64,000 nucleotides of DNA. It comes from an uncultured Nitrospiraceae bacterium. Its GTDB lineage: Bacteria; Nitrospirota; Thermodesulfovibrionia; Thermodesulfovibrionales; SM23-35. Below, piece after piece: positions 26,191 to 34,758 of the stretch (positions are counted from its first letter, which is position 1; each line of letters begins with the position of its first letter). The notes below the pieces were generated by a model, which was given only the letters and a program-made list of their open reading frames with translations, searched no databases and had not been told where the DNA came from. The position numbers and the translations under genes were made by a program. The stretch spans positions 62,001-126,000 of the forward strand of contig CAKZPA010000001.1 of the NCBI GenBank assembly GCA_937138415.1, read 5' to 3'.

Positions 26191-26622
26191 ATGGTATGGT
26201 CAGATTTTGAAAGGTTTGGACGACTTTGGGACCCCTGGGCAGACTTCGAGCGTATGAGGAGAGCATTGTATCGGTGGACGACCGCGCCTTTCGCGGAGTT
26301 TCCCCTCGTAAACGTCTGGGCTTCCGGTGAAGAAGCAATTGTCACGACAGAAATACCAGGCGTGGATCCTCAATCCATCGACATCTCGGTTACCGGAAAG
26401 ACTTTGACGATCAGAGGTTCTCGCGACCCCGAGGAACTCAGGGATGGGGAATCGTATCACCGGAGAGAAAGATGGACAGGGCAGTTCACGAAGACAATCG
26501 AGATGCCCTTCGCCATCGAAGCCGGCACGGTAGAAGCAAAATTCAGCAAGGGGGTCTTGCGCATCATCGCGCCGCGTGCAGAAGCCGAGAAACCGAAGAA
26601 AATCTCGGTAAAATCCGATTGA
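26191..26622 (+). CDS. Hsp20/alpha-crystallin small heat-shock protein 1
   Basis: A 143-residue ATP-independent holdase. The alpha-crystallin domain spans ~40-140, with VTTEIPGVDPQSIDISVTG, the FTKTIEMPF strand and AKFSKGVLRIIAPRAE. The C-terminal I-x-I-like anchor is weak (PKKISVKSD). The short N-terminus is Trp- and Arg-rich (WSDFERFGRLWDPW), typical of a branch of Hsp20 clustered in anaerobes. GTAGGAGGTGA lies 7 bases upstream. It is the first gene behind the CIRCE element, so heat induction through HrcA release is expected. Confidence 0.93.
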   Translation: MVWSDFERFGRLWDPWADFERMRRALYRWTTAPFAEFPLVNVWASGEEAIVTTEIPGVDPQSIDISVTGKTLTIRGSRDPEELRDGESYHRRERWTGQFTKTIEMPFAIEAGTVEAKFSKGVLRIIAPRAEAEKPKKISVKSD

Positions 26623-26646
26623 TCGCAAACAAGGAGGTGACACACT

Positions 26647-27054
26647 GTGGCATCCACAACGAAAGATGTCCAGAAAAAAGAAGCGGAAACCCCGGAAAAA
26701 GGCGAACTCACCCGGGAACGAAAGGTTTACTCCCCGGCCGTCGATATCGTCGAACGTAAAGACGATATCGTGGTAATCGCCGATATGCCGGGTGTCGACG
26801 AGAAGTCGGTCGATATTACTCTCCAAAAGAATATTCTGACGATCTACGGGAGGGTCGAACCCGACGTACCGGAAAAGCATACCCTCTCCCTTTCGGAATA
26901 TGGTATCGGTGATTATCAGAGGGTCTTCACTCTTACCGATGAAGTCGATAGAGAAAGAATCGAGGCAACCGTCAAGAACGGTGTCGTAAGAATCGTGCTT
27001 CCCAAGGCCGATATCGTCAAAACGAAAAAAATATCGGTTAAGGCAGAGGCATAG
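26647..27054 (+). CDS. Hsp20/alpha-crystallin small heat-shock protein 2 (GTG start)
   Basis: A 135-residue Hsp20 paralogue with ERKDDIVVIADMPGVDEKSVDITLQ, YQRVFTLTDEVDRERIEA and KNGVVRIVLPKAD. The GTG at 26647 follows AAGGAGGTGAC at 6 bases; no better ATG exists. The N-terminus before the crystallin domain is very short and charged, so oligomerisation may differ from the first paralogue. It lies 24 bases after the first hsp20 gene and 21 before the third, in one operon. Confidence 0.92.
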   Translation: MASTTKDVQKKEAETPEKGELTRERKVYSPAVDIVERKDDIVVIADMPGVDEKSVDITLQKNILTIYGRVEPDVPEKHTLSLSEYGIGDYQRVFTLTDEVDRERIEATVKNGVVRIVLPKADIVKTKKISVKAEA

Positions 27055-27075
27055 CAGAGAAAGGAGGGCGTTACG

Positions 27076-27567
27076 ATGGCAAAGAAAAACGTGGTACCTG
27101 TCAAGAGGGAGAGTGTCCCTGTTCGGAGGGAAGAGTTTCATCCTTTTTTGCTCCTCCGCCAGGAGATCAATTCACTGTTCGACTATTTCTTCCGGGGATT
27201 TGAGATCGAGCCGTTCAGGGGGCGTTTCGGTGCCTTCACCCCGAGTATTGACGTGAAGGAATCCGATAAAGATATATCGGTGATCGCGGAGCTGCCGGGC
27301 ATGGATGAGAAGGATATCGACGTCTCCCTCACGAGGGATGCGCTTACCATCAAGGGAGAGAAGAAGGAGGAGAAGGAAGAGAAGCGAAAGGATTATTACC
27401 GGATGGAGCGGACATTCGGCTCCTTCACGCGCACGATCCCGCTGCCGACCGAAATCGATGTGGATAAGGTGAAGGCGGAATTCAAGAAAGGCGTTCTGAC
27501 GGTTACACTCCCCAAGTCAGAAAAAGCGATCAAAGAAACCAAGAAGATTCCAGTCAAAGCGGAGTAA
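27076..27567 (+). CDS. Hsp20/alpha-crystallin small heat-shock protein 3
   Basis: A 163-residue Hsp20 of the common bacterial type: FHPFLLLRQEINSLFDYFF N-terminal helix, the crystallin domain from FTPSIDVKESDKDISVIAELPGMDEKDIDV, then SFTRTIPLPTEIDVDKVKAEFKKGVLTVTLPK, and the C-terminal KKIPV anchor (I/V-x-I/V motif). AAAGGAGGGCG precedes the ATG. It is followed by a strong terminator, so the three small heat-shock genes form one CIRCE-controlled unit. Confidence 0.95.
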   Translation: MAKKNVVPVKRESVPVRREEFHPFLLLRQEINSLFDYFFRGFEIEPFRGRFGAFTPSIDVKESDKDISVIAELPGMDEKDIDVSLTRDALTIKGEKKEEKEEKRKDYYRMERTFGSFTRTIPLPTEIDVDKVKAEFKKGVLTVTLPKSEKAIKETKKIPVKAE

Positions 27568-27643: not shown

Positions 27644-29788
27644 ATGCCCCCCGCATCCGTGCCTTCGCCGTTCCTCTTCATCTTCATGGGCGCCGCTTCA
27701 CTACTCCTCCAGATCGCCGTGCTGAGACTTCTCCTTGCCACATTCTCCGGGAACGAGCTGACTATCGGTATCACGCTCTCCTTCTGGCTCCTCTACGTCG
27801 GAATCGGGAGCGCTCTCGGAAAACGGTTCTCGCGAGCGGACGCATTCTGTTATTCCTTCATTGTCTCAGCCCTCTTCGCGGTACCGACCGCTCTCGCCAT
27901 AAAGTTATGCCGTTCCTCGTCATGGCTCACACCGGGAGAGGCTACGTCCCTGGCGGCAACGATCATTGCGACAGCCGTCATACTGGCGCCCATTTGCCTA
28001 ATCCTTGGCGTCCAGTTTCCCCTCGCCGTCTCATACGCGGGATCTCGCAATCCCGCGGGTCGAGTCTACGGTCTCGAGTCCCTCGGCGCATGTTGCGGCG
28101 GAATCCTGTTCACCTTCGCCCTCGCTTCCAGGATCGACAGCCTCGAACTCTGCATCGTCGTCTCGCTTTGCAACGTCATTGCGGCAACGTACCTCGGGAA
28201 AAGAAAAGCCCTCCTTTCGCTCGGGTTCGTGCCCCTTATCCTCTTTTTCGCTTTCCGTGCGCAGGTTCCTTCGGTCCCAATGCGAGGAGGAGCCACTGTG
28301 CTCTCCCAGGAATCGAAGATCGGCGAGATCACGGTCGTAAGCCAAGGCACGCAGTCGAACGTTTATATAAACGGCCAGTTCGCCTACAGCCACCCCGACC
28401 CTCAGACTGAAGAAAGAGGCATTCACGTCCCGATGACAATGCACCCCTCCCCGGACTCTCTGCTTGTCATCGGCGGTTCGCCCGGCTGCCTGAGAGAAAT
28501 CCTCAAATATACCGTGTCATGCGTCGATTTCATTGAACTCGATCCGAAACTCGCCGCTCTTTCGGAGAAGCTGATCGATGCCGCTGAAGGCCCGCAGTTC
28601 CTCAAAGACCCGCGCGTTCGCATCGTCATTCAGGACGGCAGGAGATTCGTCAAGTCCGCCGCAAAAGACGCGTACGATATGGTGATCGTGAATCTGCCGC
28701 AACCGACGACCGCGAGCATCAACAGGTTTTACACACGGGACTTTTTTCGCGAAGCGAAAAGCGTTCTCAGAAAAGACGGCATCATCTCGATAAAACTGCT
28801 CTCCTCATCGGGTTACATGGGTAGGAGCATGCAGATCGCGAACGGTTCCGTCTTCAATGCGCTTGCGTCCGTCTTCCCGAACGTTGCGGTCACCTCACAG
28901 GAGTACGGGTTTCTCTTTGCCTCTGACGCCCCTATGGTGACGGACGCGCACGTACTCGAAGCGCGATTCCTCACACGATCCATTCCCGTCACCTATTTCC
29001 CTTCGTCCCTCTTCCGCGATGCTTTCTCGTCATTCGGGGTCCACTATGTCCGTGACCGCCTCCGGCTCACTGTCCCAGTGAATACCGATGCGAGGCCCTC
29101 CGCCTATCTCTATAATCTCGTCCTCTGGACGGAAGTACACGGCGGAATGTGGCTCGGTCACCTGATGCGCGCCCGAGCATGGGTAATCGTCGGTGGGATA
29201 GTGCTTTTCTTCTCTCTCATGGCTTTTGTCCTCTTCCGAAAAAAGGAGAAGACCGTTCCCTTCACGATATTCACGACAGGATTCGCGAGTCTCTCGCTCT
29301 CACTCATCGCAATCCTCGTCTTTCAATCTCTCCACGGGTATATCTACGAAATGATCGGTTTGCTGGCCGCATTGTTCATGGCGGGGGTATGGGTCGGCGC
29401 TTCGGCGGCCCGGACCTTTCACAAACCGTTCACGCCCCTGATTCTCTTGGACACCGGCCTCTTTTTTCTCGCCGTCGCCTCTTCGCTCCTCTTGAGAGAA
29501 CCTCTGATGCCTTTCTTCGTCGCGTTGTTCGCGGGCATACTCTGCGGCGCACAATTCAGCGCTGCCAGTTTTACGGTCGGATCATCGGTCGCGGGACTGC
29601 TCTACGCTCTCGACCTCTCAGGGTCGTTCATCGGCGCACTCATCACCTCGATCGCGATTGTCCCCCTCTACGGCGTACAGGCCGCCGCACTCATCGTCGC
29701 ACTGATTAAACTCGCGTCCGCGATCCTGCTCCTCGCTTTCCGCACATTCCCGCATAATTCGTTCTATAATGGAGTATGGAGAAGATAG
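27644..29788 (+). CDS. Polytopic membrane protein with internal spermidine-synthase-like domain
   Basis: A 714-residue protein. An N-terminal set of about six helices (~8-215) is followed by a spermidine-synthase/methyltransferase-like cytosolic domain (~225-500) and five or six more helices (~505-705). The nucleotide-binding loop reads LLVIGGSPGCLREILKY with the ribose-binding acidic residue in FIELDPKLA. The segment that in true spermidine synthases is DSTDPxGP reads VNLPQPTTASINRFYT, so the polyamine-binding aspartates are missing. Proteins with this layout are widespread and usually annotated as fused MFS/spermidine synthase; actual activity is unknown. The start follows TATAAT directly. 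Its end overlaps the radical SAM gene by 13 bases. Confidence 0.8.
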   Translation: MPPASVPSPFLFIFMGAASLLLQIAVLRLLLATFSGNELTIGITLSFWLLYVGIGSALGKRFSRADAFCYSFIVSALFAVPTALAIKLCRSSSWLTPGEATSLAATIIATAVILAPICLILGVQFPLAVSYAGSRNPAGRVYGLESLGACCGGILFTFALASRIDSLELCIVVSLCNVIAATYLGKRKALLSLGFVPLILFFAFRAQVPSVPMRGGATVLSQESKIGEITVVSQGTQSNVYINGQFAYSHPDPQTEERGIHVPMTMHPSPDSLLVIGGSPGCLREILKYTVSCVDFIELDPKLAALSEKLIDAAEGPQFLKDPRVRIVIQDGRRFVKSAAKDAYDMVIVNLPQPTTASINRFYTRDFFREAKSVLRKDGIISIKLLSSSGYMGRSMQIANGSVFNALASVFPNVAVTSQEYGFLFASDAPMVTDAHVLEARFLTRSIPVTYFPSSLFRDAFSSFGVHYVRDRLRLTVPVNTDARPSAYLYNLVLWTEVHGGMWLGHLMRARAWVIVGGIVLFFSLMAFVLFRKKEKTVPFTIFTTGFASLSLSLIAILVFQSLHGYIYEMIGLLAALFMAGVWVGASAARTFHKPFTPLILLDTGLFFLAVASSLLLREPLMPFFVALFAGILCGAQFSAASFTVGSSVAGLLYALDLSGSFIGALITSIAIVPLYGVQAAALIVALIKLASAILLLAFRTFPHNSFYNGVWRR
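29765..29770 (+). promoter_or_regulatory. Perfect -10 box inside the preceding gene, next to the radical SAM start
   Basis: TATAAT ends 5 bases before the ATG at 29776. A leaderless transcript is predicted. The -35 region is poor, and the GGAG at 29771-29774 is only 1 base from the ATG and too close to act as a ribosome site. Confidence 0.55.
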
Positions 29789-30750
29789 TTCAGTGCGAAC
29801 TCTGTCCGAATGGATGCATTCTGGGGCCAGGTCAAAGGAGCAGGTGTCGCACCCGTACGAACTCGGACGGGAAACTCTATAGCCTCGTGTACGGAAGACC
29901 GTGTGCCGTGCACGTCGATCCGATCGAGAAAAAACCGTTTTTCCACTTTCTTCCGGGGACGACCGCCTTCTCCATAGCGACGGCAGGGTGCGTCCTCGCC
30001 TGCAAATTCTGCCAGAATTGGCAAATTTCCCAGTCGAAACCGGAAGACACGGACACCTACGATCTCCCGCCCGCGAAAGTCATCAGCAACGCCCTCGCAT
30101 ACCGATGCGCGTCAATCGCCTACACATACACCGAACCGACCGTCTTTTACGAGTATATGTACGACACGGCCCTCGCTGCCCGGAAAGAACGGGTCAAGAA
30201 TACCATGCACTCCTGCGGTTACATAAACGAAAGGCCTTTGAGGACACTGTCGAAGTATCTCGACGCTGCCAATATCGACCTCAAAGCGTTCACTGAAGAT
30301 TTCTACAGCAACGTGTGCGGCGGCAGGCTGAAACCGGTCCTCGATTCCCTCGTCATTCTGAAGGAAGAAGGCATATGGCTCGAGATCACGAACCTCGTGA
30401 TCCCGACTCTGAACGATGACGCAAAGAAGATCAGGGAGATGTGCAGGTGGATCGTCGATAAACTGGGCAGGGACGTTCCCCTCCACTTCTCGCGTTTTTT
30501 CCCCCACTACAGATTGACCAATCTGCCGCCGACACCTATAGAGACGCTCGAAAGTGCGAGGAAGACCGCGTTGGACGCGGGAGTGAGGTTCGCGTATATC
30601 GGCAACATTCGCCACGAGGCTGAAAACACATACTGTCCGAACTGCAAGAAAGTACTCATCGAAAGGACAGGATACGTCGTGAAGGGGAACCATGTCGTCA
30701 ACGGCAAGTGCCGCTACTGCAATACCGCGATTCCGGGCGTGTGGAATTGA
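29776..30750 (+). CDS. AmmeMemoRadiSam system radical SAM enzyme
   Basis: A 324-residue radical SAM protein. The [4Fe-4S] motif is CxxxCxxC at Cys72, Cys76 and Cys79 (GCVLACKFCQNWQIS). An N-terminal cysteine cluster (Cys7, Cys10, Cys14, Cys24 in CELCPNGC...RSRC) and a C-terminal zinc ribbon (YCPNCKKV and KCRYCNTA) flank the barrel. TYTEPTVFYEYM is a family hallmark. Its partners Memo and AMMECR1 are encoded just downstream, defining an AmmeMemoRadiSam locus whose reaction is not established. Homologues I recall begin with an EAMFY-type segment before the first cysteines; here it is absent and a very similar EAMFW segment occurs in the separate small gene at 30817. Confidence 0.88.
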   Translation: MEKIVQCELCPNGCILGPGQRSRCRTRTNSDGKLYSLVYGRPCAVHVDPIEKKPFFHFLPGTTAFSIATAGCVLACKFCQNWQISQSKPEDTDTYDLPPAKVISNALAYRCASIAYTYTEPTVFYEYMYDTALAARKERVKNTMHSCGYINERPLRTLSKYLDAANIDLKAFTEDFYSNVCGGRLKPVLDSLVILKEEGIWLEITNLVIPTLNDDAKKIREMCRWIVDKLGRDVPLHFSRFFPHYRLTNLPPTPIETLESARKTALDAGVRFAYIGNIRHEAENTYCPNCKKVLIERTGYVVKGNHVVNGKCRYCNTAIPGVWN

Positions 30751-30816
30751 CAGGGGACTCGTCTTCCTTTCCGGTCAGGCATACCGCGAACTCGTGAATC
30801 TCGAAAGGAGTAACGC

Positions 30817-30948
30817 ATGAGCAGGAGGGACTTCCTCAAAACTGTTGGAGCAGGGATTCTCGCTCTCTTATTGTCGGCGGCGGTCGACGCCGGCGGGAAG
30901 CCCGAGCAGCACCTCACAGAGGCGATGTTCTGGCGTCGGGTGGAATAG
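30817..30948 (+). CDS. 43-residue peptide with twin-arginine signal in the AmmeMemoRadiSam locus
   Basis: A short frame with a good ribosome site (GAAAGGAG, 6 bases before ATG). The peptide starts with an ideal twin-arginine motif, MSRRDFLK, followed by a hydrophobic core (VGAGILALLLSAAVDA), then GGKPEQHL and ends TEAMFWRRVE. The end resembles the segment that precedes the first cysteines in other AmmeMemoRadiSam radical SAM proteins. It therefore looks like a detached Tat leader of such an enzyme, encoded after rather than in front of it. It could be a remnant of a second copy, a split gene, or a genuine small exported peptide. It ends 2 bases before the Memo-AMMECR1 ATG. Confidence 0.65.
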   Translation: MSRRDFLKTVGAGILALLLSAAVDAGGKPEQHLTEAMFWRRVE

Positions 30949-30950
30949 TC

Positions 30951-32372
30951 ATGAAAAAGCGCCTCTCCCCCCTTGCCCTTTCGTTCTTCCTCATCCTGTC
31001 GTGTCTCATCGCGAACGGATGCGCACAGACAGTGAAGGAACCTTCGGTCGCGGGAACCTTTTACCCCTCCGACAAAAAAGAGCTGCATGACATCGTCGAT
31101 ATGTTTCTGGCGAGTGCACCGTTCATTCCGCATGAAGGGAAACTCCTTGTTCTCATCTCGCCTCATGCGGGATATCGGTATTCCGGAGGCGTCGCCGCAC
31201 ATGGATACAAGCAGCTTCAGAACCTCGCCCTGCGCAGAATTATTCTGATCGGCCAGAGCCACCACGAGGCGTTCAGGGGGGCGTCTGTGTACACGTCCGG
31301 ATCTTTCGGAACACCCCTTGGAACCGTCAAGATCGATACGGCATCGGCGAACAAGCTCCTCGACGAGAATGCCGACGTAAGGTACTATCCGCAGGCTTTT
31401 GCGAAAGAGCATAGCCTCGAGGTGCAGCTGCCATTCCTCCAGTCCGTCGTGAAGTCGTTTACGATAGTACCTATCATCCTCGGGTCCCCGACAAAGAAAA
31501 CGTACAATCATCTCGTTTCGGCATTGAGCGAGATGATGGATGAACAGACCCTCATCGTGGCGAGCACGGATCTCTCTCACTATCACAGCTATCAGAGGGC
31601 TCTCGAAATGGATGGCAAGGTCATTAACGCGATAGAACGTCTCTCTCTCGTGACGGTGGGAGAACTAATCGATCGCGGTGAATCGGAAATGTGCGGAGCC
31701 ATCGCAGCGATGATCGCGATGGAAGTGGCCAAAAGACGCGGTGCAGACCGTGGTGTTCTCTTTCGCTACGCGAATTCGGGAGATGTGATAGGCGAGAAAG
31801 AGAGAGTCGTCGGATACGCCTCGATCGGTCTTTTCGCCAGTCCTCTCAATGCTCATGAGCGGAACGAACTCCTTTCACTGGCGCGCTCCGCGATCGCTAC
31901 GTACGTTCAGGACGGGCGAGTGATCGAGCCGGAGATAAACAATCCCAAGCTTCGCTCGGACGGCGCGGTCTTCGTCACGATCAAGGAAAAAGGCGCTCTC
32001 AGAGGATGCATAGGACACGTGCAGGCGGTTATGCCGCTCTATCAATCCGTCATAAAAAATGCCATTGCTGCCGCTATATCCGATCCAAGATTTCCCCCGC
32101 TCAGACAGAGCGAGCTCAAGGATATCGAGGTAGAAATCTCTATCCTTTCTCCTCTCCAGAAATTGAAGAAGGTCGAAGACATCGAAATAGGCAAGCATGG
32201 CCTCGTGATCAGGAAAGGGTTCAGGAGCGGCCTGCTGCTACCGCAGGTGCCCGTAGAGCAACGTTGGGATAGGAAGACCTTCCTTGCCCAGATCTGTACA
32301 AAGGCAGGCTTGCCTGAAGATGCATGGAAAGATTCGGAATTATATATATTTACAGCAGATACCATAAAGTAA
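30951..32372 (+). CDS. Exported Memo - AMMECR1 fusion protein (AmmeMemoRadiSam B and A)
   Basis: A 473-residue fusion. Residues 1-25 are a signal peptide with a lipobox-like IANGC (Cys24), so it is probably exported and possibly a lipoprotein; the lipobox is imperfect. The Memo domain (~28-298) keeps the metal-site residues known from MEMO1: His72 in SPHAGY, a histidine in GQSHHEA (104/105) and Cys248 in EMCGA. The AMMECR1 domain (~303-470) has the invariant LRGCIGH (350-356). The family belongs to the class III extradiol dioxygenase fold but no reaction is settled. Export is notable because most Memo and AMMECR1 proteins are cytosolic. Confidence 0.88.
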   Translation: MKKRLSPLALSFFLILSCLIANGCAQTVKEPSVAGTFYPSDKKELHDIVDMFLASAPFIPHEGKLLVLISPHAGYRYSGGVAAHGYKQLQNLALRRIILIGQSHHEAFRGASVYTSGSFGTPLGTVKIDTASANKLLDENADVRYYPQAFAKEHSLEVQLPFLQSVVKSFTIVPIILGSPTKKTYNHLVSALSEMMDEQTLIVASTDLSHYHSYQRALEMDGKVINAIERLSLVTVGELIDRGESEMCGAIAAMIAMEVAKRRGADRGVLFRYANSGDVIGEKERVVGYASIGLFASPLNAHERNELLSLARSAIATYVQDGRVIEPEINNPKLRSDGAVFVTIKEKGALRGCIGHVQAVMPLYQSVIKNAIAAAISDPRFPPLRQSELKDIEVEISILSPLQKLKKVEDIEIGKHGLVIRKGFRSGLLLPQVPVEQRWDRKTFLAQICTKAGLPEDAWKDSELYIFTADTIK

Positions 32373-32451: not shown

Positions 32452-32480
32452 TTGACTTCCACAATATATTGTGGTTAAAT
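32452..32480 (+). promoter_or_regulatory. Promoter of nrdJ
   Basis: TTGACT (32452-32457) and TTAAAT (32475-32480) are 17 bases apart; the spacer is filled by the palindrome at 32459-32474. The leader to 32542 would be about 55 bases. Confidence 0.75.
32459..32474 (+). promoter_or_regulatory. NrdR-box-like palindrome
   Basis: CCACAATATATTGTGG is a perfect 16-bp palindrome resembling the NrdR consensus (ACACwATATATwGTGT). It lies exactly between the -35 and -10 elements of the ribonucleotide reductase promoter. NrdR represses nrd genes according to (d)ATP levels. A second box, usually about three helical turns away, is not clear. Confidence 0.8.
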
Positions 32481-32541
32481 GACGGAGCACAAACGTAACC
32501 ATACAACGTATAGTCAATCGCAATTTCATAAAGGAGGGCAC

Positions 32542-34758
32542 ATGGACGCTACAAAGGTTCTCAACCTATCGCAGAACGCTCTCAAAGTACTCGAAAAAAG
32601 GTACCTGAAGAAGAACGAGGAAGGCAGGGTGATCGAGACGCCCGAAGACCTCTTCAGGAGGGTCGCGAAGTGCGTCGCTGCCGCTGATCTACGCTACAGG
32701 AAATCGCAGGATAAGGTCGAGAAGGTCGAGCAGGAGTTCTACGGAATGCTCACATCGCTCGAGTTTCTCCCGAACAGTCCTACCCTGATGAACGCAGGGA
32801 GACGGCTCGGGCAATTGAGTGCGTGTTTCGTCATTCCCGTTGAAGATTCGATGGAATCGATCTTCGATGCGGTCAAATATACCGCGATCATCCATAAATC
32901 AGGTGGCGGTACGGGATTCAGTTTCTCGCGGCTACGGCCAAACGGCGACATCGTCGGCTCGACGAAAGGCATATCGTCCGGCCCCGTTTCCTTCATGACC
33001 GTCTTTGATACCGCAACCGAAGCGGTCAAACAGGGAGGTACACGACGAGGAGCCAACATGGGCATACTGAGGGTCGACCACCCTGACATTCTCAGTTTCA
33101 TCACGTGCAAAGACGACCTGAACAAGTTCAACAATTTCAACATCTCCGTTGCCATCACCGAAGAATTCATGAGGGCGGTGCTCGAAGATAAAGAGTACAA
33201 CCTCATCAATCCGAGAACGAGAAAAGTGGTTAACTCACTGAGAGCGAAAGACGTCTTTCACCTCATCGTGGAGCATGCATGGAAAAACGGCGAGCCCGGC
33301 ATCGTCTTCATTGACAGGGTAAATGAATCGAACCCAACGCCCAAGGTGGGAACCATCGAATCGACGAACCCGTGCGGCGAGCAACCGCTCCTCCCGTACG
33401 AGTCATGTAATTTGGGCTCGATCAACTTGGCACGCATGGTCGACGCGCGGCGCCGGGAGATCGAATGGGAGAAACTTGGGGAGATCACGCGGAACGCCGT
33501 CCATTTTCTCGACAACGTCATCGATATCAACAAGTACCCACTGAAGAAGATCGAAGAAATGACCCTCGCGAACAGGAAAATAGGGCTCGGGGTTATGGGG
33601 TGGGCGGACATGCTCATTCAGCTGGGAATCCCCTACAATTCGGAGCGTGCCGTTCGCCTGGCGGAAGAGGTGATGTTATTCATTCAGAGAGAAGGGAAGC
33701 AGGCTTCGTCCGCACTCGCTGAAGAGCGGGGGGTATTCCCCAATTACGAAGGGAGCATCTATGACGGCAAGATCCGCCTCCGGAACGCGACCGTCACGAC
33801 CATCGCCCCGACGGGGACTCTTTCCATCATCGCGGGCTGTTCATCGGGCATCGAACCGCTCTTCGCCGTCTCCTACGTGAGAACCGTCATGGAAGGGACG
33901 AAATTGATCGAGATCAACCCGTACTTCGAACAGGTCGCCAAAGAACGTGGCTTCTGGTCACGGAGGCTTATGGAACAGATTTCCGAGACGGGATCGGTAC
34001 AGGGCTTCGATGAGATACCCGATGACGTCAAGGCGATCTTCGTGACGGCACACGACATATCGCCCGCCGACCACGTCATGATGCAGGCGGCGTTCCAGAA
34101 ATACGTCGACAATGCTGTTTCGAAGACCGTCAACTTTCCGAAAGACGCGACCCCGCGCGACGTCGAAAACGTGTACCTCCTCGCCTACGAACTCGGCTGC
34201 AAAGGCGTCACCGTGTACCGCGACGGGTCGAGGCAGCAGCAGGTCCTCACGAAAGGGAAAAAAGGCGAAAAACAGCCCGAAGAAGGACGACAGAAGATCG
34301 TGCCCCGGAAGAGGCCTGCCGTGATAAAAGGAACGACGCGGCTCATGAAGACCGGCTGCGGAAACCTCTACGTGACCATTAACGAAGACGAGGAAGGACA
34401 TCTCTTCGAGCTGTTCACCTCGATGGGGAAAGCGGGAGGCTGCGCTGCGAGCCAGTCCGAGGCGATCGGTCGGCTCGTCTCCCTCGCCTTCAGATCGAAC
34501 ATCGAACCGGATGAGGTCATCAAACAACTCAAGGGGATCATGTGCCACTCGCCGACATGGCACGAGGGAGGGCGCATCCTCTCCTGCTCGGATGCGATTG
34601 CGAGCGCCCTTCAACGGTACCGGGAAAAAGGGTCGAAGGGCAACGGGGACAGCCATAAAGTCGTCATGCTGATGGGCGCATGCCCGGAATGCGGCGGCGC
34701 CGTCGAGCACGAAGGGGGATGCGCGGTCTGCCACAACTGCGGGTTCACCCGCTGCTGA
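32542..34758 (+). CDS. nrdJ: Adenosylcobalamin-dependent (class II) ribonucleotide reductase
   Basis: A 738-residue class II enzyme making deoxyribonucleotides without oxygen. Seen are SGGGTGFSFSRLRP, NPCGEQPLLPYESCNLGSINL with the catalytic cysteine region, TIAPTGTLSIIAGCSSGIEPLF, and the C-terminal zinc-ribbon-like tail CPECGG...CAVCHNCGFTRC, which is typical of the bacterial NrdJ form. The ATG at 32542 is chosen because AAAGGAGGG lies 6 bases upstream; an in-frame ATG at 32479 overlaps the -10 box and cannot be the start. The enzyme needs coenzyme B12, so the cell must make or import it. Transcription is probably controlled by NrdR. Confidence 0.95.
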   Translation: MDATKVLNLSQNALKVLEKRYLKKNEEGRVIETPEDLFRRVAKCVAAADLRYRKSQDKVEKVEQEFYGMLTSLEFLPNSPTLMNAGRRLGQLSACFVIPVEDSMESIFDAVKYTAIIHKSGGGTGFSFSRLRPNGDIVGSTKGISSGPVSFMTVFDTATEAVKQGGTRRGANMGILRVDHPDILSFITCKDDLNKFNNFNISVAITEEFMRAVLEDKEYNLINPRTRKVVNSLRAKDVFHLIVEHAWKNGEPGIVFIDRVNESNPTPKVGTIESTNPCGEQPLLPYESCNLGSINLARMVDARRREIEWEKLGEITRNAVHFLDNVIDINKYPLKKIEEMTLANRKIGLGVMGWADMLIQLGIPYNSERAVRLAEEVMLFIQREGKQASSALAEERGVFPNYEGSIYDGKIRLRNATVTTIAPTGTLSIIAGCSSGIEPLFAVSYVRTVMEGTKLIEINPYFEQVAKERGFWSRRLMEQISETGSVQGFDEIPDDVKAIFVTAHDISPADHVMMQAAFQKYVDNAVSKTVNFPKDATPRDVENVYLLAYELGCKGVTVYRDGSRQQQVLTKGKKGEKQPEEGRQKIVPRKRPAVIKGTTRLMKTGCGNLYVTINEDEEGHLFELFTSMGKAGGCAASQSEAIGRLVSLAFRSNIEPDEVIKQLKGIMCHSPTWHEGGRILSCSDAIASALQRYREKGSKGNGDSHKVVMLMGACPECGGAVEHEGGCAVCHNCGFTRC

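Follow-up and report, generated by a model that had tools for sequence, protein, structure and literature searches.

A 43-residue Tat leader in all likelihood detached from the radical SAM enzyme AmrS in Nitrospirota

A 43-residue open reading frame (ORF) lying between the genes for the AmmeMemoRadiSam radical SAM enzyme AmrS and a Memo-AMMECR1 fusion protein almost certainly encodes the Tat signal and first strand segment of AmrS, which were split from the enzyme a single time, in an ancestor of these Nitrospirota. Comparison of the sequences makes it very likely that the leader protein acts in trans for AmrS. It is also likely, if with a greater margin of doubt, that Tat exports AmrS by the hitchhiker route with the segment as docking strand, a reading that draws on both sequence and structure prediction.

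The locus lies on the forward strand of the window, by which we mean the whole 64,000-nucleotide stretch of DNA analysed. The amrS gene (29776–30750) encodes a 324-residue radical SAM enzyme body with neither a leader nor the EAxxY segment of its fused relatives. It matches TIGR04337 with 387.5 bits (E = 4.5e-116; threshold 220 bits), and the cysteines of its CxxxCxxC radical SAM motif (C72, C76 and C79) are invariant in alignment A3. Residue 4 aligns to profile position 11 and nothing is aligned before it; since the match begins only at position 11, an N-terminal segment is missing from AmrS. This segment, which is usual in the TIGR04337 family and lies outside its cut-off, ordinarily precedes the first cysteine on the same chain; here a separate ORF encodes it. 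The N terminus of the window AmrS (MEKIVQCELCP) has no Tat signal, as is also the case for the other split AmrS proteins. A TATAAT promoter element (29765–29770) lies 11 bases 5′ of the amrS start codon, in the place that a ribosome site would occupy, and TATAAT is found at the same position, 11 or 12 bases 5′ of the ATG, in 25 of the 36 further split loci whose start could be read. Because the promoter is so near the ATG, the mRNA is predicted to begin at or beside the start codon; the sequences predict that amrS mRNA is leaderless across the clade and hence that AmrS has no hidden N-terminal leader. The same genome also has a second, dispersed and ordinary set, comprising a cytosolic AmrS on contig 3 (N terminus MREAMFYERQADAKVRCFLC), a separate Memo gene on contig 40 and an AMMECR1 gene on contig 37. 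Within the window's own family, additional AmrS proteins with a fused Tat leader were seen at L222 (genome G004), L223 (G013) and L053 (G016), and in G004 and G013 the fused-leader and split forms are both present.

The leader ORF (30817–30948) begins 66 bases after amrS, running from an ATG at 30817 to a TAG at 30946–30948, and its product is MSRRDFLKTVGAGILALLLSAAVDAGGKPEQHLTEAMFWRRVE (43 residues). Within it, a Tat motif, SRRDFLK (30820–30840), is followed by a hydrophobic stretch, and the predicted docking segment, TEAMFWRRVE (30916–30945), forms the tail. The preliminary description had credited this ORF with a good ribosome site and a perfect Tat motif, and both are borne out: AAGGAG stands at 30805–30810, and the product passes the curated cut-offs of TIGR01409 (25.9 bits against 16.7, NCBIfam) and PF10518 (23.4 bits against 22.7, Pfam). 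Two bases after its stop comes the gene for the Memo-AMMECR1 fusion (30951–32372; TIGR04336, TIGR04335, PF01875 and PF01871), which has a lipoprotein-like signal. Elsewhere in the window, the gene 3′ of memo (32479–34758) encodes a B12-dependent ribonucleotide reductase, and three consecutive small heat-shock-like genes occupy 26191–27567 on the forward strand, one of which was scanned and matched Hsp20-type models.

Profile searches found homologues of the leader ORF in 21 of 61 related genomes, and the catalogue grew to 37 distinct ORFs, all from Nitrospirota, once further loci were added. Homologous small ORFs adjoin memo and AMMECR1 genes throughout this Nitrospirota clade. The twin arginine and the Phe-Trp pair are present in all 37 aligned sequences. 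For the four closest pairs dN/dS is 0.21, 0.08, 0.25 and 0.16 (0.06/0.28, 0.03/0.40, 0.11/0.44 and 0.09/0.57, respectively). That the ORF is probably translated is supported by its ribosome site, by selection at the codon level and by its conservation. It was found in 21 of 22 genomes with a short AmrS and in none of the 39 without one (Fisher p = 1.8e-15, a value that takes the relatives as units although related genomes are not independent). Five families (f2, f4, f7, f8 and f9) each include members with and members without the gene set. The short AmrS proteins of the 21 leader-bearing genomes are 58–100% identical to that of the window, and nearly all of these genomes have the Memo-AMMECR1 fusion, which was unseen in G004, where the contig is short. 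In G039 the short AmrS exists as two pieces at contig ends, and the leader was not found there. The leader had been described as encoded downstream of its body, which holds at most loci, but its closer tie is to memo: in three genomes (G027, G034 and G048) it stands directly 5′ of memo and amrS is unlinked, on another contig.

A genome search with the leader-plus-AmrS query found 80 loci. The 15 nearest belong to Nitrospirota and 14 of them carry the leader ORF; at the remaining one (L155) amrS is present and the leader ORF was not found nearby. Nearly all other loci encode one chain in which a leader, the EAxxY motif and then the first cysteines follow one another, and the phyla concerned include Omnitrophota, Zixibacteria, Aminicenantes, Planctomycetota, Bacteroidota and Ignavibacteriota. 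The fused leaders are mostly of Tat type and some are Sec-like; the Omnitrophota protein L160, for example, reads MRIKRRDFIKMTICSSGYMLSKDLGFVYASVKEKEALYYKTLKDNIIQCLHCPHKC. An AmrS from Draconibacterium (L217) lacks the segment, and a leader ORF was not recognised in its locus. Fused Tat-AmrS proteins such as L160 and L158 (Zixibacteria) share with the split system the enzyme, the kind of leader and the EAxxY segment, as well as an adjoining Memo-AMMECR1 fusion with a signal where the neighbourhood is visible; they differ in being a single chain and in having tyrosine in the segment where the split leader has tryptophan.

Phylogenetic analysis of 128 AmrS bodies with leaders removed (a quick search with SH-aLRT support only and a midpoint root) places the 38 split rows in one clade with SH-aLRT 100, nested among the fused exported forms. 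The exported group as a whole has SH-aLRT 85, and the cytosolic Nitrospirota paralogues fall outside it. Fused forms thus lie outside and split forms make up a nested clade, the pattern of gene fission, and since the split forms are a single clade among fused ones, a single fission explains them. The proposal that the leader was detached from the radical SAM protein is accordingly upheld by the homologous small ORFs beside memo and AMMECR1 genes, by the existence in other phyla of relatives that fuse such a leader to the enzyme, by the nested split clade and by the matching spacing. We infer, by analogy with the pilin genes described next, that the present order of body, leader and memo may have arisen by tandem duplication, one leader and one body being lost afterwards. 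A comparable history has been inferred for the Geobacter pilin genes GSU1496 and GSU1497, in which an N-terminal part and a globular body were split by duplication, degeneration and separation, and genes of this type are adjacent and can stand in either order (PMC5174107). As with the leader and AmrS, an N-terminal part and a globular body are now adjacent genes, although the GSU1497 body has a signal peptide of its own, whereas AmrS has none, and the export routes differ.

Residue spacing agrees with this origin. In 57 of 66 fused AmrS proteins, the glutamate of EAxxY lies 14 positions ahead of the first cysteine. In 22 of the 37 split leaders, nine residues run from the corresponding glutamate to the end, and the split bodies usually have six residues before the cysteine, the first being methionine and the next mostly serine, glycine, alanine or proline. 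An initiator methionine is normally removed before these residues, so the nine leader residues and five remaining body residues would rebuild the fused spacing of 14. The window AmrS starts with Met-Glu, from which methionine would be kept, giving 15. Against a simple profile of the fused segment, only 0.6% of control ORFs comparable in length scored as high as the window segment, and only 0.5% as high as the split-ORF median; both figures are conservative because the controls include some true copies. Spacing and profile therefore both agree with the likeness originally drawn between TEAMFWRRVE and the pre-cysteine segment of related radical SAM proteins.

For structure prediction, amrS and the leader ORF, which share one frame, were modelled in AlphaFold as a single chain of AmrS, tether and leader, with the two intervening stops read as residues. 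Fused relatives were trimmed to their bodies in the fold alignment, so the alignment gave no hint of the segment; leader ORFs, which co-alignment with AmrS bodies misplaced, were left out, as were loci from the wider genome search, and the docking region then held two sequences. AmrS is well predicted in the linked model, with pLDDT below 50 in the tether (residues 327–348) and the Tat stretch (358–377). Residues 381–390, TEAMFWRRVE, have a mean pLDDT of 93, the chains being joined artificially and the placement judged by pLDDT and strand pattern. In the linked model T381-E382 form a bridge and W386-V389 a strand; the model of the fused homologue L160 has a bridge at K34-E35, a strand at Y39-T41 and a next strand at I47-C49, the last of which corresponds to I4-C7 in the window body. 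From this common strand pattern, the segment is predicted to lie where the fused enzymes have it, docked on AmrS as the missing N-terminal strand, and the peptide HLTEAMFWRRVE would be the putative AmrS-binding peptide. The high pLDDT of the segment may come from the model recognising the family.

These features suggest how export could proceed. AmrS would be made without a leader and would receive its FeS clusters while still in the cytoplasm. The leader would then bind the folded enzyme in trans, its C-terminal (K/T)EAMFW(R/K)(R/K) predicted to fill the place of the N-terminal hairpin strand of fused relatives, and the folded pair would leave through the Tat translocase, with AmrS as the hitchhiker. 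Outside the cytoplasm the exported AmrS would meet the Memo-AMMECR1 lipoprotein, which, judging from its sequence, is likely to be its partner there. On balance we favour describing the system as a natural split signal peptide, in which a stand-alone 43-residue product would supply both Tat targeting and a missing β-strand in trans and would have been kept since one fission in Nitrospirota.

Several genomic observations bear on this route. The Tat signal is present on one partner only, the leader, and TatC is encoded in the window's own genome and in 58 of the 61 relatives; of the 21 leader-bearing genomes 19 have it, and a match was not found in the other two, G011 and G015. Where the neighbouring gene encodes an exported AmrS, split or fused, the Memo-AMMECR1 protein nearly always has an N-terminal hydrophobic signal, in many cases of lipoprotein type. 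In two genomes (G042, locus L229; G060, locus L230) the Memo-AMMECR1 lipoprotein is kept, no exported AmrS or leader was found in the genome and no leader was seen 5′ of memo. Among 28 genomes with a fused AmrS, three lack TatC and all three fall within the eight whose leaders are not Tat-like, which suggests that export itself is kept. These Sec-like or unclear leaders are those of L167, L170, L171, L175, L187, L203, L205 and L212, and the genomes in which a TatC match was not found are those of L170, L187 and L205. Export of an FeS enzyme by a Sec-like leader, without Tat, would be odd and sits awkwardly with the export reading. For radical SAM chemistry to run outside the cytoplasm, SAM and a reductant would also have to be available there, which counts against that reading, and our literature search found no report of either in that location.

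Hitchhiker export by Tat is established for systems such as HybO/HybC of hydrogenase-2 and PaoABC, in which an untagged, folded cofactor protein leaves with a twin-arginine partner (PMC4273604, PMC10924467). The split AmrS resembles them in that the sole twin-arginine signal is on the partner and the cargo has no signal. It differs in the carrier, which in the known cases is a folded, cofactor-bearing subunit and here is 43 residues comprising little beyond the cargo's former signal and first strand. Signal peptides, to our knowledge, normally belong to the exported protein itself, and the hitchhiker carriers known so far are genuine subunits. The family TIGR02811 (formate dehydrogenase region TAT target), a very small Tat-signal protein near a redox enzyme gene, resembles the leader in size, signal and setting, but it aligns only with the Tat part, residues 1–23, scoring 16.3 bits where the cut-off is 48.45, and leaves the EAMFW segment unmatched. 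Literature searches found AmmeMemoRadiSam mentioned a single time in each of five papers, nothing joining AMMECR1, MEMO1 and radical SAM, and no pertinent work on Tat signal peptides that are split. The mechanism is known in kind; what is new, as far as these searches show, is a carrier pared down to the signal and first strand that once belonged to its cargo.

Another reading takes the leader for a permanent membrane anchor rather than an export carrier: its hydrophobic stretch would stay uncleaved and, by way of the docked segment, keep AmrS at the membrane beside the Memo lipoprotein. In many homologues KK or RK follows a hydrophobic stretch that is short, and a cleavage site is not obvious (for example MTRRDFLGFFLLGGLVSLFYKKIKPAVKSEPKKAMFWRNTDET). 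We consider this reading unlikely, as anchoring alone does not need the invariant twin arginine and a credible cleavage site can be seen in some homologues (L236, ...FRAFAK), though anchoring could also come after export by Tat. A separate observation concerns an unnamed membrane protein, some 65 residues long, encoded closely 5′ of amrS at L050, L128/L151, L134, L137/L154, L138, L147 and L150; its tail, roughly YxKRRLYYERxISKKGLSLHxAxYW(R/K), recalls the EAMFWRR of the leader, and its sole match in Pfam is a weak one to DUF4492.

That AmrS modifies the leader, a short exported peptide with a conserved Met-Phe-Trp core, as in peptide-modifying radical SAM systems, seems very improbable. A short peptide with a conserved core does adjoin a radical SAM gene, and the nearest solved structure to AmrS in a fold search, which was uninformative for the leader, is pyruvate formate-lyase activase, an enzyme that acts on a polypeptide and for which a peptide-bound structure exists. 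Other phyla, however, carry the same segment within the enzyme chain, no full-length stand-alone match to the leader was found in 50 genomes with a fused AmrS, and the spacing and predicted strand fit the N terminus of AmrS itself.

We give equally little credence to the idea that the protein is unimportant and that the ORF chiefly serves memo, as a coupling ORF upstream of it or as the carrier of its ribosome site. The leader always lies directly 5′ of memo, even with amrS elsewhere, and its TGG ARR codons, for the tryptophan and following basic residue, fall in the ribosome-site region of memo. The phenylalanine codon of the FW motif is TTC in 36 of 37 leaders, whereas long ORFs of the same loci use TTC in 128 of 170 Phe-Trp pairs (p = 0.0004). 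The FW motif is thus probably also under RNA-level constraint, which may account for part of its conservation and could be the reason that the split clade has tryptophan where fused forms have tyrosine. Such constraint does not explain the twin arginine, present in 37 of 37, the lysine codons AAA or AAG that follow the tryptophan in 14 of 37, or the CGT CGG of the window, neither of which yields a ribosome site; dN/dS of 0.08–0.25 across the ORF and homology with the fused leader likewise argue for a protein function. Conservation and selection rule out a chance ORF, dN/dS and co-occurrence at unlinked loci rule out a leftover fragment, and a further stop in the same frame rules out readthrough fusion into memo.

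ORFs as short as this one are readily omitted from annotation, so similar detached leaders may have been missed elsewhere. If the proposed reading is true, the leader would be a minimal natural case for testing how a complex is accepted by Tat, and some ten strand residues would suffice as specificity for a folded FeS cargo. A function for AmmeMemoRadiSam was not found in the literature, and an exported branch would narrow where that function must lie. On this reading a whole branch of a radical SAM family would work outside the cytoplasm.
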